Source: Sinorhizobium terangae (GTDB lineage: Bacteria; Pseudomonadota; Alphaproteobacteria; Rhizobiales; Rhizobiaceae). From it: 64,000 nt of DNA. The notes under the pieces are model-generated. The model did not search any database. It was not told the DNA's origin and saw only the letters and a list, made by a program, of their open reading frames with translations. The stretch is from NCBI RefSeq assembly GCF_029714365.1, contig NZ_CP121659.1, forward strand, positions 434,001-498,000, given 5' to 3'. Positions 27,626-32,824 of this stretch are shown here, piece by piece. Positions within the stretch are counted from its first letter, which is position 1. Each line of letters begins with the position of its first letter. Made by a program: the position numbers and the translations under genes.

Positions 27626-27842
27626 CTCTGCTTTACGGTAAATTAGGAACTTCGACTGGACGAGCTGTTTCGAGATCATTAGCTTGCGATATATCAGGCG
27701 CGCCGCTACGGCCGGTTGCAAGGACTTGAAGCGGACTTGATTTTTGACGGAAGTTTTGACGTCGTTTATCACGGCGAAGGCGGCCTCGCTCGATCGGGCG
27801 CGGGATGTGGGAGACGAGCGGGTGGTAGATTTCAGCGCAGGT

Positions 27843-28562
27843 ATGTCCTCATTAATACTCCCGAGCGGGCGGTCAGTCGCGGGAGCGCTGGGCGACGAAG
27901 ACGATATCAAGCGGGTTCTCGGTCAGATATCGGACGCCTACGGCTTTCGCGGATTCCTGGTTTTGTCGATCCCGGATGCCGGATGCCACAGCCTGGGCAC
28001 GCAGGCGCTGATGACAACCTGGCCGTCGGAGTTTCTCAGGCGCTACGACAGCGCTCGTCTGATCGATGGTAGCCCTGTCATCCAGCGGCTGCGCCGGAGC
28101 ACGATTCCGTTCACCTACGATGCCCATCTGCTTGCGCGCAGGCGGCTCGACGGCAAGGGTGACGCGGCGGTTTGTGTCTTCGAAGCGGCCGGTCTGCCGC
28201 GCGGTCTGTATCTGCCGGTTCATGACGCATCGGGACGACGCGCCGCCGTCGCCTTTGGTGGCAACAGAGAGCTTGTTTCCAATGACGAGATGCAGGCGCT
28301 CAACCTTTGGGCGGGTCTTCTCTACAGTCGGCTGAGCGAGGTGCGAGGCCGTGACCGGCGGGGACCCGGCAGCCTTTCCCGTCGTGAGATCGAGTGCCTC
28401 CGCTGGGCCGCCGCGGGCAAGACGACCATGGAGATGGCGAGAATCATGGCGCTTTCCGAATACACGGTGAACCATTACCTCAATCGCGCGACGCGCAAAT
28501 TGGATTCCGTCAATCGTGTTCAGACCGTTGCCAAAGCCATGCGTGCAGGGCTGATCAACTGA
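27843..28562 (+). CDS. LuxR-type transcriptional regulator (solo), first of a tandem pair
   Basis: About 239 residues: an N-terminal region like the autoinducer-binding domain (IKRVLGQISDAYGFRGFLVLSIPD) and a C-terminal GerE HTH (LSRREIECLRWAAAGKTTME...SEYTVNHYLNRATRKLD). No luxI synthase is nearby. Start is uncertain: ATG 27843 aligns with the paralogue, GTG 27822 has GAGACGAG upstream, and TTG 27744 is a longer alternative. Together with the next gene it forms a tandem duplicate pair; the two may heterodimerise, as VisN/VisR do in S. meliloti. Ligand unknown. Confidence 0.85.
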   Translation: MSSLILPSGRSVAGALGDEDDIKRVLGQISDAYGFRGFLVLSIPDAGCHSLGTQALMTTWPSEFLRRYDSARLIDGSPVIQRLRRSTIPFTYDAHLLARRRLDGKGDAAVCVFEAAGLPRGLYLPVHDASGRRAAVAFGGNRELVSNDEMQALNLWAGLLYSRLSEVRGRDRRGPGSLSRREIECLRWAAAGKTTMEMARIMALSEYTVNHYLNRATRKLDSVNRVQTVAKAMRAGLIN

Positions 28563-28722
28563 ATTTCGTTTTTCGAAAAGGCCGGACGGAACATGCGGCG
28601 CGCAAAGCGGGGGAAAATACACAGCCTTTTGCACATGAATGGCGCCGAACGTGGATCATCTGTTGGCATTGGTCGACTGCTCGGGCTATTTGGTAATCGA
28701 TGAATGCCATGGAACGTGCGAA

Positions 28723-29478
28723 ATGCAAGATACGATGACGGCCGGGATGACTGACACCGATCTGCCCCGGGGCGGTGATTTCGCGTCTGAAATCGCAAGG
28801 CTTGAGACCCAGTTCGATATCATCCGCTATATGCGGCGGGTCACGCAGCTCTTCGGTTTCAAGGTTTTTCTCATCTGTTCGATTCCCGCGATCGAAGTGG
28901 AGAGGCTGGCTGCAACGACCGTCATATCCAACATGCCGGCCGAACTCCTCAACAAGTATGACAGCCTGTCGATGCTGCGCTTCAGCACGGGCGTGCGTCG
29001 CTTGCGGGAGACCACGACGCCGTTCCAGATCATGCTTGAAGACTGGGAAAACGAGGGCGGCAAGCCGGCATCGGCTGCAGACTACATCGCCATGTTGCAC
29101 GAGAACGGCCTTTTGCAGGCCAACTATTTCCCGGTCCACGATGCCGAAGGCGGCCGCGGTGCAGTTATTCTCATGGGGCCGGAAGCGGATTTGCCGATGA
29201 CGGCGGCGATGGAATTGCAGATGATCGCGATCCACGTCTACAATCGATTGGCGGAGATCGGCGCCGTCTGGAAGAATACCAATACCACCCTGTCCGAGCG
29301 CGAAATCCAGTGCCTGAGCTGGACGGCAGCCGGCAAGACCAGCGCCGAAATCGCCGGTATCCTTGGTCTGTCCGAGCACACCGTCAATCACTATCTCAAT
29401 CACGTTACCAAGAAGCTCGACGCCGTGAACCGCACGCAGGCGGTCGTGAAGGCGATGAAGAAGGGCTACATCAGCTGA
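28723..29478 (+). CDS. LuxR-type transcriptional regulator (solo), second of a tandem pair
   Basis: About 251 residues with the same plan as its upstream neighbour: ligand-domain segment DIIRYMRRVTQLFGFKVFLI and C-terminal HTH LSEREIQCLSWTAAGKTSAE...LSEHTVNHYLNHVTKKLD. Identity to the first copy is strongest in the HTH, pointing to an old tandem duplication. ATG 28723 with GGAAC upstream is preferred; ATG 28639 would extend it by 28 residues. It lacks a neighbouring acyl-homoserine-lactone synthase gene. Confidence 0.85.
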   Translation: MQDTMTAGMTDTDLPRGGDFASEIARLETQFDIIRYMRRVTQLFGFKVFLICSIPAIEVERLAATTVISNMPAELLNKYDSLSMLRFSTGVRRLRETTTPFQIMLEDWENEGGKPASAADYIAMLHENGLLQANYFPVHDAEGGRGAVILMGPEADLPMTAAMELQMIAIHVYNRLAEIGAVWKNTNTTLSEREIQCLSWTAAGKTSAEIAGILGLSEHTVNHYLNHVTKKLDAVNRTQAVVKAMKKGYIS

Positions 29479-29952: not shown

Positions 29953-30017
29953 TGGTTCAAAATGTTACCGCCTAATCAATGCCAGGCGGCGTAACGAAGA
30001 CAGATGAAGAGGGCGGC

Positions 30018-31175
30018 ATGCCGGACGTAACCAGGGAAACGGTTCTTGAAAAGCTGCGGAACGTGCGCGGACCGGACATGGAGGGCAATATCGTCGACCT
30101 CGGCCTTGTCTCCGACGTCTTCATTTCCGACGGAAAAGCCTATTTTTCGATCACCGTTCCGGCCGATCGGGCGAAGGAGCTTGAGCCGATGCGCGCCGCG
30201 GCGGAGAGGGTCGTGCGCGAAATACCCGGCGTCAAGGCGGCAATGGTTGCGCTGACGGCAGATCGCAAGGCGGCACCGCAGGCGGCGCCGGTTCAGACGC
30301 CGCGGCAGGTTCCGCCCGCGGCGCACGGGCACGCTCAGCGTCCGGCCGGTGGCGCGCCGGCAAAGGCGGGTATCCCCGGCGTCGGCGCCATTATCGCCGT
30401 TGCTTCCGGCAAGGGCGGTGTCGGCAAGTCGACGACATCGGTGAACCTCGCGCTCGCATTGCAGGCAAATGGCTTGAAGGTTGGTCTGCTCGACGCCGAT
30501 ATCTACGGCCCCTCCATGCCGCGCCTTTTGAAAATCAGCGGCCGGCCGCAGCAGATCGAAGGGCGGCTCATTCGGCCGATGGAAAACTACGGGCTGACGG
30601 TCATGTCGATGGGTTTCCTCGTCGACGAGGAAGTTGCCATGATATGGCGCGGCCCGATGATCCAGTCGGCCCTGCTGCAGATGCTTCGCGAGGTGGCCTG
30701 GGGCGAGCTCGACATTCTCGTCGTGGATATGCCGCCCGGCACGGGTGACGCGCAACTGACGATGGCCCAACAGGTGCCGCTGGCCGGCGCCGTCATCGTC
30801 TCGACGCCGCAGGACCTGGCGCTCGTCGATGCACGCAAGGGGCTCACGATGTTCCGAAAGGTGGAAGTCCCGGTTCTCGGGATCGTCGAGAACATGAGCT
30901 ACTTCGTGGCGCCTGACACCGGCAATCGTTACGACATCTTCGGTCACGGCGGCGCGCGCAAAGAAGCCGAGCGCATTGGCGTGCCGTTCCTCGGCGAGGT
31001 ACCTTTGACCATGGGTATTCGCGAAACCTCAGACGCGGGAACGCCGGTGGTGGTTTCCGAACCCGACGGCGAGGTCGCGCGCATTTACCGGGGTATTGCA
31101 GCAAAGGTCTGGGAGCAGGTTTCGGCGGCTCGCCAGACCAAGGGCCGGACGATGCCCGATATCGTCTTCGAATAG
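30018..31175 (+). CDS. mrp: Mrp/ApbC-type Fe-S cluster carrier ATPase
   Basis: 385 residues. N-terminal MIP18/DUF59 domain (about 1-85), an Ala/Pro/Gln-rich linker, and a ParA/MinD-like ATPase with deviant Walker A SGKGGVGKST (about 128-137), LDADIYGPSMPRL and DILVVDMPPGTGD. The family transfers Fe-S clusters to apoproteins. The C-terminal CxxC seen in E. coli Mrp is absent: the loop reads YFVAPDTGNRYDIFGHGGA. ATG 30018 with AGAGGGCGG upstream is better than 29979. A repeat cluster precedes and a repeat mosaic follows the gene. Confidence 0.93.
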   Translation: MPDVTRETVLEKLRNVRGPDMEGNIVDLGLVSDVFISDGKAYFSITVPADRAKELEPMRAAAERVVREIPGVKAAMVALTADRKAAPQAAPVQTPRQVPPAAHGHAQRPAGGAPAKAGIPGVGAIIAVASGKGGVGKSTTSVNLALALQANGLKVGLLDADIYGPSMPRLLKISGRPQQIEGRLIRPMENYGLTVMSMGFLVDEEVAMIWRGPMIQSALLQMLREVAWGELDILVVDMPPGTGDAQLTMAQQVPLAGAVIVSTPQDLALVDARKGLTMFRKVEVPVLGIVENMSYFVAPDTGNRYDIFGHGGARKEAERIGVPFLGEVPLTMGIRETSDAGTPVVVSEPDGEVARIYRGIAAKVWEQVSAARQTKGRTMPDIVFE

Positions 31176-31197
31176 ATTTGCGTCGTCCGAGCAGGTC

Positions 31198-31570
31198 AGA
31201 GCCTCTCATGTCTAAATGGAAACGATTCTGTTGGCTCAAGCGGAGTGGAACGTTTGCTCGGCTGGCGCGCGCCGTGGCCTGAGCATACGGCCAAGCCGTC
31301 CGAGCAAACAGGCCGCCTGCTTCAGCCAACGCGAAGGGTCGGGCATCTTTCCGCCAGGATCAGAGGCGATCGCCTCGGCCGTACGGTCAAGTACGACACT
31401 ACAGCGCCGCGCGTCCAATCGGACGCGCAAAGGTCGCTGTAGCACTTTGAATTACTGCATGGTTCCTTAAATCGATTCCGATTTAAGGAACCATGCAGTA
31501 GGCAATCGCCTCTGATCCTGATGAAAACCTGCTCCGGCAGAATCGCTTCCATTTAGACATGAAAGGCTCT
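31198..31570. repeat. Nested mosaic of palindromic elements with 33-bp inverted ends
   Basis: Outer arms 31198-31230 and 31538-31570 are inverted copies with two mismatches in 33. Inside them, 31355-31374 and 31501-31520 are a second inverted pair (one mismatch in 20), split by the 100-bp element at 31401-31500. A third palindromic module (GTTGGCT.../...AGCCAAC with GTTTGCTCGG/CCGAGCAAAC inside, 31229-31333) interrupts the left half only. The right half (31501-31570) looks intact. No coding capacity. Confidence 0.85.
31401..31500. repeat. Rhizobial palindromic intergenic element, copy 5 (best preserved)
   Basis: ACAGCG...CGCTGT hairpin enclosing GCGCGTCC/GGACGCGC, linker AGCACTTTGAATTACTGCAT, then a perfect 22-bp inverted repeat (31453-31474 with 31479-31500, loop ATTC) containing CCTTAAATCG. 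It interrupts the symmetric core of the surrounding mosaic. Confidence 0.9.
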
Positions 31571-31605
31571 AGTTTGCGCCGAAATGAAATCCTGCGAGGA
31601 CAGGC

Positions 31606-31725
31606 ATGCGCAAAGGAGCATTGATTTTGCGCGCGTGTTGCGCCATATGCCTTGCCGCCCCTGTGCAGGGTGATCGGCTCAGCGCCTCTCGCCGGAGACT
31701 ATGGCCTCCCGCGACAAACGATTGA
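31606..31725 (+). CDS. Possible 39-residue small exported peptide
   Basis: ATG 31606 follows GAGGA by six bases and opens a 39-codon frame ending TGA at 31723. The product starts MRKGALILRACCAICLAAPV, a short basic N-terminus plus hydrophobic Cys/Ala-rich segment like a signal peptide, then a basic tail. It lies in the otherwise gene-free leader 31571-31846 before corA and could equally be a chance frame or a leader peptide. Confidence 0.25.
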   Translation: MRKGALILRACCAICLAAPVQGDRLSASRRRLWPPATND

Positions 31726-31846
31726 GGATTTGTCGTGCAGGGCGGAAGCTTCATCTGATGAATCTGCATTATGGAAATCGTGTGGCGGTTGATCGCTTCA
31801 GAGCCTTGTGGGTCGATTTTGTCGGCCGCATGAAAAGGGCAGCGGC

Positions 31847-32824
31847 ATGATCACGGGATACTGTACGAACGGTGACGCCGTTGCATTGTCAGCGGCAGAG
31901 CCGCCGGCGTCCCTGCGTCCCGAGGTCGTCTGGATCGATCTCGTCGAGCCGACCAAGACGGAAGATCTGATGATGGAGAAATTGCTGGGGATCTCCATCC
32001 CGACGCGGGACGACCTGAAGGATATCGAGCCGTCAAGCCGCCTCTACACCGAGAACGACGCCGTCTTCATGACGGCTTCGCTGGTCTATCGCAGCGATAC
32101 GGAAATTCCGGGCCTGACGGATGTCGGCTTCATTCTTTCGGGCGGCCGGCTGGTGACGATCCGCTACGCGGAGCCCAGGGCGTTCGGGTTATTCAAAGCC
32201 GGTATGCACCGGATTCCCGGCGGGTGCCGCAACGGAGCCGTGCTTCTCGCCCGGCTGCTCGAGACGATCGCCGACCGGACGGCGGAAATCCTGGAGCAGG
32301 CGGTGGACAAGATAGACGGCCTGTCGATCGAGGTTTTCGGCGACAAGGCGGCGGCCAGACGCCGTCCGCCGCACTTTCTCGAGGCACGGCTGCGCGATGT
32401 GGCGGGTCACTACAGGCTGGTCGCAAAAACGCGCGACAGCCTTGCCTCGCTTTCAAGGCTTTTGACCTTCGTCTACACTGTTCCCGCTGTGCAAGGCGAC
32501 AAGGACAGCCGGGAACTTTGCCGGTCGATATCGCGGGACATACAATCGCTCTCCGAGCACGCGGCGTTCATCTCGGGAAACATCACCTTTCTGCTCGATG
32601 CCTCGCTGGGGCTTATCAACGTCGAGCAGAATGCGATCATCAAGATCTTCTCGATTGCCTCGGTCGTCCTCTTGCCGCCGACACTCGTCGCGTCCATCTA
32701 TGGCATGAATTTCCGCGTGATGCCGGAGCTTGAATGGCAGCTCGGCTACCCGTGGGCACTGGCGGCTATGGTGATATCGGCCGTGATACCCTTCTTCTTC
32801 TTCCGTTGGAAAGGCTGGCTTTAA
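31847..32824 (+). CDS. corA: CorA-family magnesium/divalent cation transporter
   Basis: 325 residues: a long soluble N-terminal funnel domain with helices, and two C-terminal transmembrane helices separated by the selectivity signature, here YGMNF. The charged KGWL C-terminus faces the cytoplasm. Mg2+ (or Co2+/Ni2+) uptake as a pentamer in the inner membrane is expected. ATG 31847 has AAAAGGG upstream, better than GTG/ATG codons at 31808. kup follows after 17 bp in the same direction, so the two ion transporters are probably cotranscribed. Confidence 0.93.

Follow-up and report, generated by a model that had tools for sequence, protein, structure and literature searches.

Two nested TA-duplicating palindromic elements behind mrp in Sinorhizobium terangae, and a structured MITE family with matched arms

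Introduction

Behind the mrp gene of Sinorhizobium terangae lies a 373-bp mosaic of palindromic repeats, and the question it raises is how its layers came to be nested and what moved them. A preliminary description, made from the letters alone, proposed a symmetric parent element of about 140 bp, a 100-bp element inserted at its centre and a second palindromic module inserted into its left arm. We analysed this locus within a stretch of 64,000 nucleotides from the S. terangae genome (the window, to which positions refer), together with related loci in other genomes.

Results

Repeat architecture of the locus

The outer arms are as described before, at 33 nt and 94% complementarity with 2 mismatches (31198-31230/31538-31570). 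The inner arms proved to be part of a longer 33-nt pair (31343-31375/31500-31532; 82%), with a 21-bp core at 95%. The perfect 22-bp palindrome was confirmed at 31453-31474/31479-31500, and the left module holds palindromic pairs at 31230-31241/31319-31330 and 31252-31266/31295-31309. The 100-bp element (element R) had been placed exactly at the centre between the inner arms; it lies instead in the loop of hairpin B, beside the right arm. The predicted fold of the 373 bp has an energy of -233.2 kcal/mol, compared with -126.0 +/- 5.2 in shuffled sequences (z -20.7), and none of 100 shuffles was equally stable. Element boundaries were refined from empty sites and sequence, giving the following features.

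29979-31175, + strand: mrp (Mrp/ApbC-type ATPase, named from its translation), upstream of the insertion
31197-31198, no strand: target duplication on the left of the outer element, decayed to CA here and in genome G026; the empty site and most other copies have TA
31199-31569, + strand: body of the outer element, an IS630-type MITE of ~272 bp without the insertion; nearly palindromic, strand given as that of the window
31198-31230, + strand: left terminal inverted repeat (stem)
31230-31330, + strand: hairpin A, the extra left module of the preliminary description; in 39 of 39 top-scoring fetched copies
31331-31343, + strand: A/B linker and junction core, consensus CCCGAAGGGCCGG, in the window GCGAAGGGTCGG; near-invariant alignment columns, also in order-wide matches
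31337-31537, + strand: hairpin B, the earlier inner arms, with R in its loop; boundaries approximate
31400-31401, no strand: left TA of element R; the empty site in G026 reads GACAC-TA-GGC
31402-31498, + strand: body of element R, RIME1/CIR-like; two hairpins and a linker, with GATTC (GANTC) at 31474-31478 in the second loop
31499-31500, no strand: right TA of element R, from the comparison with G026
31538-31570, + strand: right terminal inverted repeat
31570-31571, no strand: right target duplication (TA) of the outer element, from empty sites and the flanks of other copies

The only open reading frames over the outer element are an 84-aa frame (31216-31470) and an overlapping 161-aa frame on the minus strand, both of which we judge to be spurious and the element non-coding. 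No Rfam family reached its gathering score in this stretch or in five diverse copies; the sub-threshold matches of the stretch fall on the perfect hairpin of element R.

The outer element inserted at a CTAG behind mrp

The outer element is inserted ~22 bp behind mrp. A search with 30900-31850 gave matches in all 33 of 33 genus genomes; we fetched 16 mrp loci and could read the junction in 10, the downstream sequence of the remaining 6 being too diverged to judge. At eight of these 10 orthologous loci (G016, G030, G005, G010, G028, G027, G029 and G018) we found an empty site, CAGG-CTAG-(T/G)TTG, so that the older palindromic element does have empty counterparts in relatives, as the preliminary description led one to expect. 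The site is filled in G032, which is of the same species, and in G026. A left TA decayed to CA is common to the window and G026 and favours a single insertion event over two. In a tree of the local site, G026 pairs with G027, whose site is empty (support 0.997), rather than with the genome of the window; this patchy distribution of the filled site calls for loss or local recombination in addition.

Among 40 full copies (39 from the genus and that of G026, with L072 left out of this count), 31 have TA on both sides, the nine exceptions including decayed ends. Targets of the 31 TA-flanked copies are CTAG (11), TTAA (8), TTAG (5), CTAA (3) and four others; 27 of the 31 fit YTAR. The outer element is thus short and non-coding, with terminal inverted repeats, a TA duplication with empty sites, and dispersed copies of a mobile family (G010, for example, has 25 forward and 26 reverse end matches). 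It is a single copy in the S. terangae genome by a covariance model search, in which it matched at 31198-31570 (E 8.6e-58). As had been stated before, no transposase lies inside the nested elements, so movement must be in trans. In all features tested the outer element conforms to a MITE; its target and, less surely, its ends make it one of IS630 type.

Upstream of mrp, the window also carries two adjacent LuxR-type regulator genes (27744-28562 and 28639-29478), which look alike and were named by eye.

Hairpin A is a native part of a ~272-bp element

In 39 further genus copies (L088-L126), 267-275 bp long, hairpins A and B occur together in all 39; these are the best-scoring copies, and the query contained hairpin A. 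We therefore also paired ends by their terminal repeats alone, leaving out unpaired ends, many of them at contig ends of genome G006. Among the 53 end-to-end pairs listed, 39 span 264-276 bp, 5 span 372-476 bp and 9 span 126-251 bp; none has the ~140 bp of the proposed symmetric parent. Hairpin A is also in all 33 rows of our alignment (rows chosen for full length) and in order-wide full-length matches, and it has no TA at its borders. Shorter forms exist: L161 (126 bp) has only B and L132 (165 bp) only A, each with a junction that fits the loss of one hairpin, and L163 (168 bp) lacks part of A. Hairpin A as a separate insertion was rejected on the grounds of the joint presence of A and B in the 39 top copies, the pair lengths and the hairpin-loss junctions. 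We conclude that the left module, which had been taken for a later insertion, is hairpin A, a native part of the outer element. In favour of the symmetric parent with a central insertion and a later insertion of A, one can point to the B-only L161 and to L163; set against the 39 top copies, the alignment rows, the order-wide matches and the pair lengths just given, we consider that history very unlikely.

The longer forms contain R, which lies in the A/B linker at 8 loci fetched from G012 and G025, is present twice in L158 and is reversed in L137. The linker composites are 369-373 bp long and multi-copy in G012 and G025 (L127-L131, L133-L135; L158 has two R), which means that such composites can move as units. 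The preliminary description had allowed that the 373 bp might recur genome-wide as one fixed unit. A composite of similar length does recur, with R at a different place; the arrangement of the window is a single copy in the S. terangae genome, by which it was rejected as a genome-wide unit, and G026 has the same site without R. A fixed composite of the full 373 bp is accordingly scarcely credible.

In the draft genome G006, many contigs stop no more than ~44 bp from one of the family's terminal repeats, as if the element had broken the assembly.

Element R is a later insertion

The claim that R entered the older palindromic element afterwards is borne out by G026, in which an uninterrupted 272-bp element reads GACAC-TA-GGC where the window reads GACAC-TA-[R]-TA-GGC. 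Other outer copies often have TC at the R target point (GACACTCGGC in L091 and L112), from which it follows that a point change created the CTAG used by R. In G032, R is present and hairpin A has in addition lost an internal segment; the order of events is outer element, then R, then the hairpin A deletion in G032.

Elsewhere in the S. terangae genome R recurs at least 40 times (40 of 423 candidates scored). TA stands on both sides in 26 of 29 examined copies, and GANTC occurs in 28 of 30, in 26 of them at the same position within the second loop; shuffled sequences gave a mean of 10.3 and at most 16. R fits a ~108-bp, two-palindrome anatomy, the window copy being 4 bp shorter than most. Alignments of five regions fetched with four megaplasmid queries have no R at L415, L418 and L419 or at L416 and L417; the flanks there are diverged, so the sole clean filled/empty pair for R is that inside the outer element. 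In the A/B linker of G012 and G025, R has GT rather than TA on the right, and the reversed R in L137 and L159 has CA on one side. An R-like half copy (54 bp, 89%) lies at L225:8203-8256, between kinase and regulator genes beside pckA (chvG/chvI-like, by our own reading of the names). RIME1 (Rhizobium-specific intergenic mosaic element) is reportedly ~108 bp long with two large palindromes, and a copy is said to lie between chvG and chvI. The TA flanks, GANTC, the half copy beside pckA and the anatomy that a review gives for CIR (see Discussion) together make R best filed as RIME1/CIR-like.

A further half R lies at L225:3289-3332, upstream of an ahcY-like gene. The reverse nesting also occurs: in L105 (G010) a 272-bp element sits within an R-like palindrome, as probably in L119.

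The family is spread across the order and its ends read TAG

The outer family has matches in 199 plasmid records (Rhizobium 145, Sinorhizobium 53, Agrobacterium 1) and in 21 of a sample of 151 genomes of the taxonomic family, numbers slightly understated because this first query started at element position 30 and ran ~28 bp beyond the end. With a covariance model built from 33 copies, 32 of the 150 genomes searched within the order gave matches, representing 26 of 90 genera, with S. terangae and one other of its family included; a complete genome, G219, gave 12 matches. TA stood on both sides in 15 of 18 order-level loci re-examined. The junction pattern occurs in at least 120 stretches of named genomes, the 80 listed being mostly from Rhizobium and Sinorhizobium and also from Agrobacterium, Neorhizobium and Mycoplana. 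We found no description of the 272-bp family in the literature searched, including PMC1525189, PMC2573895, PMC2873474, PMC3733652 and PMC2680597, a set that covered little of the RIME and CIR originals and S. meliloti repeat lists; the family may have been published as an S. meliloti repeat (Sm, A, B, C motifs) or under a RIME/CIR-type name.

The element ends read TAG. For 207 distinct junctions, the frame ending at the junction TAG is open for at least 130 codons in 58 of 198 cases, compared with 21 of 200 and 14 of 204 for the other two frames. In L420 (1742-1745), the junction TAG coincides exactly with the end of an annotated LacI-type gene. Of five annotated plasmid copies, four are flanked by convergent genes; a sixth record carries no annotation. 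The open-frame excess would be explained in part by insertions that restore a stop at the end of a gene, or by selection against other sites.

The fold is conserved with compensatory changes and the arms match within copies

A 33-copy alignment was made without structure, and the structure was then derived from it. Of its cells 96.5% are paired, and both sides have changed in 59 of its 85 pairs, compared with 22.9 in shuffles and 20-30 in slid structures. The fold of a single copy, L097, has z -18.3. Covariation extends to hairpins A and B, away from the element ends. G-U pairs make up 2.9% of cells in the terminal stem and 5.7% in the internal stems.

In 36 divergent copies, several of which share a genome, the two arms of a copy agree at a mean of 0.94 over positions 6-21, compared with 0.48 between copies, and this agreement ends at position 25. 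Conservation is seen at the outer bases (TA-GAGC) and at a few inner positions; the other arm positions drift. In a larger set of 109 distinct copies, 60 have 22 perfect arm pairs, in 22 different arm sequences; 8 of 64 ends called at an inner TA, 17 places without a call and one 355-bp element had been dropped from this set.

We then compared each copy with its nearest relative. Nearest pairs less than 5% apart differ by 4 double changes, all still paired, and by 29 single changes, of which 23 break a pair. At 5-10% there are 32 double changes (30 of them Watson-Crick) and 66 single ones; slid controls gave 5 and 10 double changes, and by our own arithmetic ~4 would be expected if the changes were independent. 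At 10-20% the counts are 140 double and 119 single. The one-sided, pair-breaking changes in close copies mean that resident copies decay arm by arm, and that spreading lineages are those with matching arms. We read this pattern as correction of one arm by the other or strict selection at movement; selection on RNA or co-change with a transposase may lie behind it instead.

IS630 elements are candidate mobilisers

The IS630 transposase domain PF13358 occurs at 12 places in the S. terangae genome, 8 of them of one type. Five of these 8 were measured, and all have 1049 bp between their TAs, with ends that begin TA-GAGCGGTTCCGG and TA-GAGCGTTTCAGG (in full, TAGAGCGGTTCCGG and TAGAGCGTTTCAGG). These 1.05-kb elements with TAGAGC ends are presumably of the ISRm2011-2 type (IS630 family), which, unlike the outer element, is autonomous and codes for a transposase. 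Compared with MITE ends, theirs are the same at 9-12 of 16 positions and those of an IS in G010 at 9-14 of 16, with TAGAGC in common. Agreement at 12 or more of 16 positions has a chance of 4e-5 for one comparison, although 24 were made and the ends are interdependent. There is a constant difference in the genus, GAGCG in the IS and GAGCC in the MITE, and the ends diverge beyond position 16. The two ends of an IS630 element agree with each other at 15-17 of 20 positions.

PF13358 was matched in 11 of 14 further genomes that bear the element. G074, G151 and G175 gave no match, so another or a lost mobiliser has to be assumed there. Among 60 fetched IS630 loci, 9 of them with paired TAGAGC ends, none had ends nearer to the MITE than these, in a search for an autonomous partner that required fixed lengths and TA. 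Judged from sequence, the outer element was probably mobilised in trans by an IS630 transposase.

At L165, ~1332, a second TAGAGCG end (TAGAGCGCCGTGCGTTCAAATG) lies 54 bp outside the IS630 element; another TA element is perhaps nested beside it.

Discussion

The reading that we consider probable is that the locus consists of two nested non-autonomous TA-duplicating elements, mobilised in trans by IS630 transposases, with arms kept alike by fold-back. A ~272-bp MITE, whose terminal stem (24 paired positions and an inner stretch) closes a junction bearing hairpins A and B, first inserted into a CTAG downstream of mrp; the loop of its hairpin B later gained a CTAG of its own by a point change, and the RIME1/CIR-like R took that as its target. 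An IS630-family transposase, for instance from the 1.05-kb IS630 of the same genome, the ends of which are also TAGAGC, would act in trans. During movement or replication the strand would fold back on itself so that one arm corrects the other, and elements with mismatched ends would drop from circulation. The empty sites for both steps, the TA flanks, the mobility of the family, its order-wide spread and the compensatory changes in a conserved fold are established by the data; we infer both the trans mobilisation by the IS630 family and the correction between arms.

Two other explanations of the matched arms have to be weighed. The element could act as RNA, perhaps as a terminator or by stabilising 3' ends, hitch-hiking on TA insertion and maintained by selection on the transcript. 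Its stable fold, the conservation of the junction core across the order and the position of most annotated plasmid copies between convergent genes would suit such a role. However, G-U pairs are few in the terminal stem, most one-sided changes in close copies break pairing, both strands fold and match the model, and no Rfam family matched above its cut-off; we regard selection on a transcript as unlikely, if far from negligible. Alternatively, the ends may covary because one transposase binds both and lineages differ in their transposase, with no fold-back involved. The conserved TA-GAGC and inner positions amid drifting ones are what this predicts, as is the predominance of one end type within a genome, such as G010. 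Yet the ends of the IS630 elements match each other less well than those of the 60 MITE copies with perfect arms in 22 sequences, and hairpins A and B covary although they do not form the ends. Co-change with a transposase is a real possibility, though somewhat less likely than not.

The conserved two-hairpin fold and the drifting but matched arms mark the outer element as a variant MITE. We tentatively suggest, as an idea more doubtful than likely, that it belongs to an order-wide class of mobile elements recognised by fold: the machinery would read shape (stem, junction CCCGAAGGGCCGG and two hairpins) and not letters beyond TA-GAGC and a few inner bases, arm would be copied onto arm at each round so that the ends drift jointly, and the terminal TAG would serve as a stop, making insertion at gene ends harmless. 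Whatever the mechanism, the locus provides two dated insertions, each with its empty site, and the family is a structured MITE family, order-wide, with ends that keep complementarity and not sequence. It makes testable the question of whether the arms of long-stem MITEs are kept by RNA selection, by transposase binding or by arm-to-arm correction in folded DNA.

Several known repeats resemble one or other element. RUP of Streptococcus pneumoniae (IS630-Spn1; 107 bp) is an IS630-family MITE that, like the outer element, has no genes, IS630-like inverted ends, a TA duplication and many intergenic copies (PMC2229807). The outer element differs from RUP in its 272 bp, its two internal hairpins on a junction, its drifting matched ends and its order-wide range. 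Br-REP1 and Br-REP2 of Bradyrhizobium are hairpin repeats in 3' regions, Br-REP1 having three stem-loops, and their printed consensus is, by eye only, unlike the outer element (PMC5082802). Bru-RS of Brucella is a stem-loop repeat of 103-105 bp (PMC2267715), and R resembles it by description, both being alphaproteobacterial short stem-loop repeats; the Rfam Brucella sRNA BASRCI27 matches R weakly (22.6 bits, with a cut-off of 59.8). CIR (CcrM-associated intergenic repeat) is described in the same 2007 review as two large palindromes and a linker, with GANTC at the loop and TA termini, its target duplication being entered in a table as '?' (PMC2229807). R shares with CIR and RIME1 a length of ~108-110 bp, two palindromes, a linker, TA termini and GANTC at the loop, and goes beyond the CIR entry in that its filled and empty sites display a TA duplication. 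For one case, this pair answers the question mark: the target duplication is TA.
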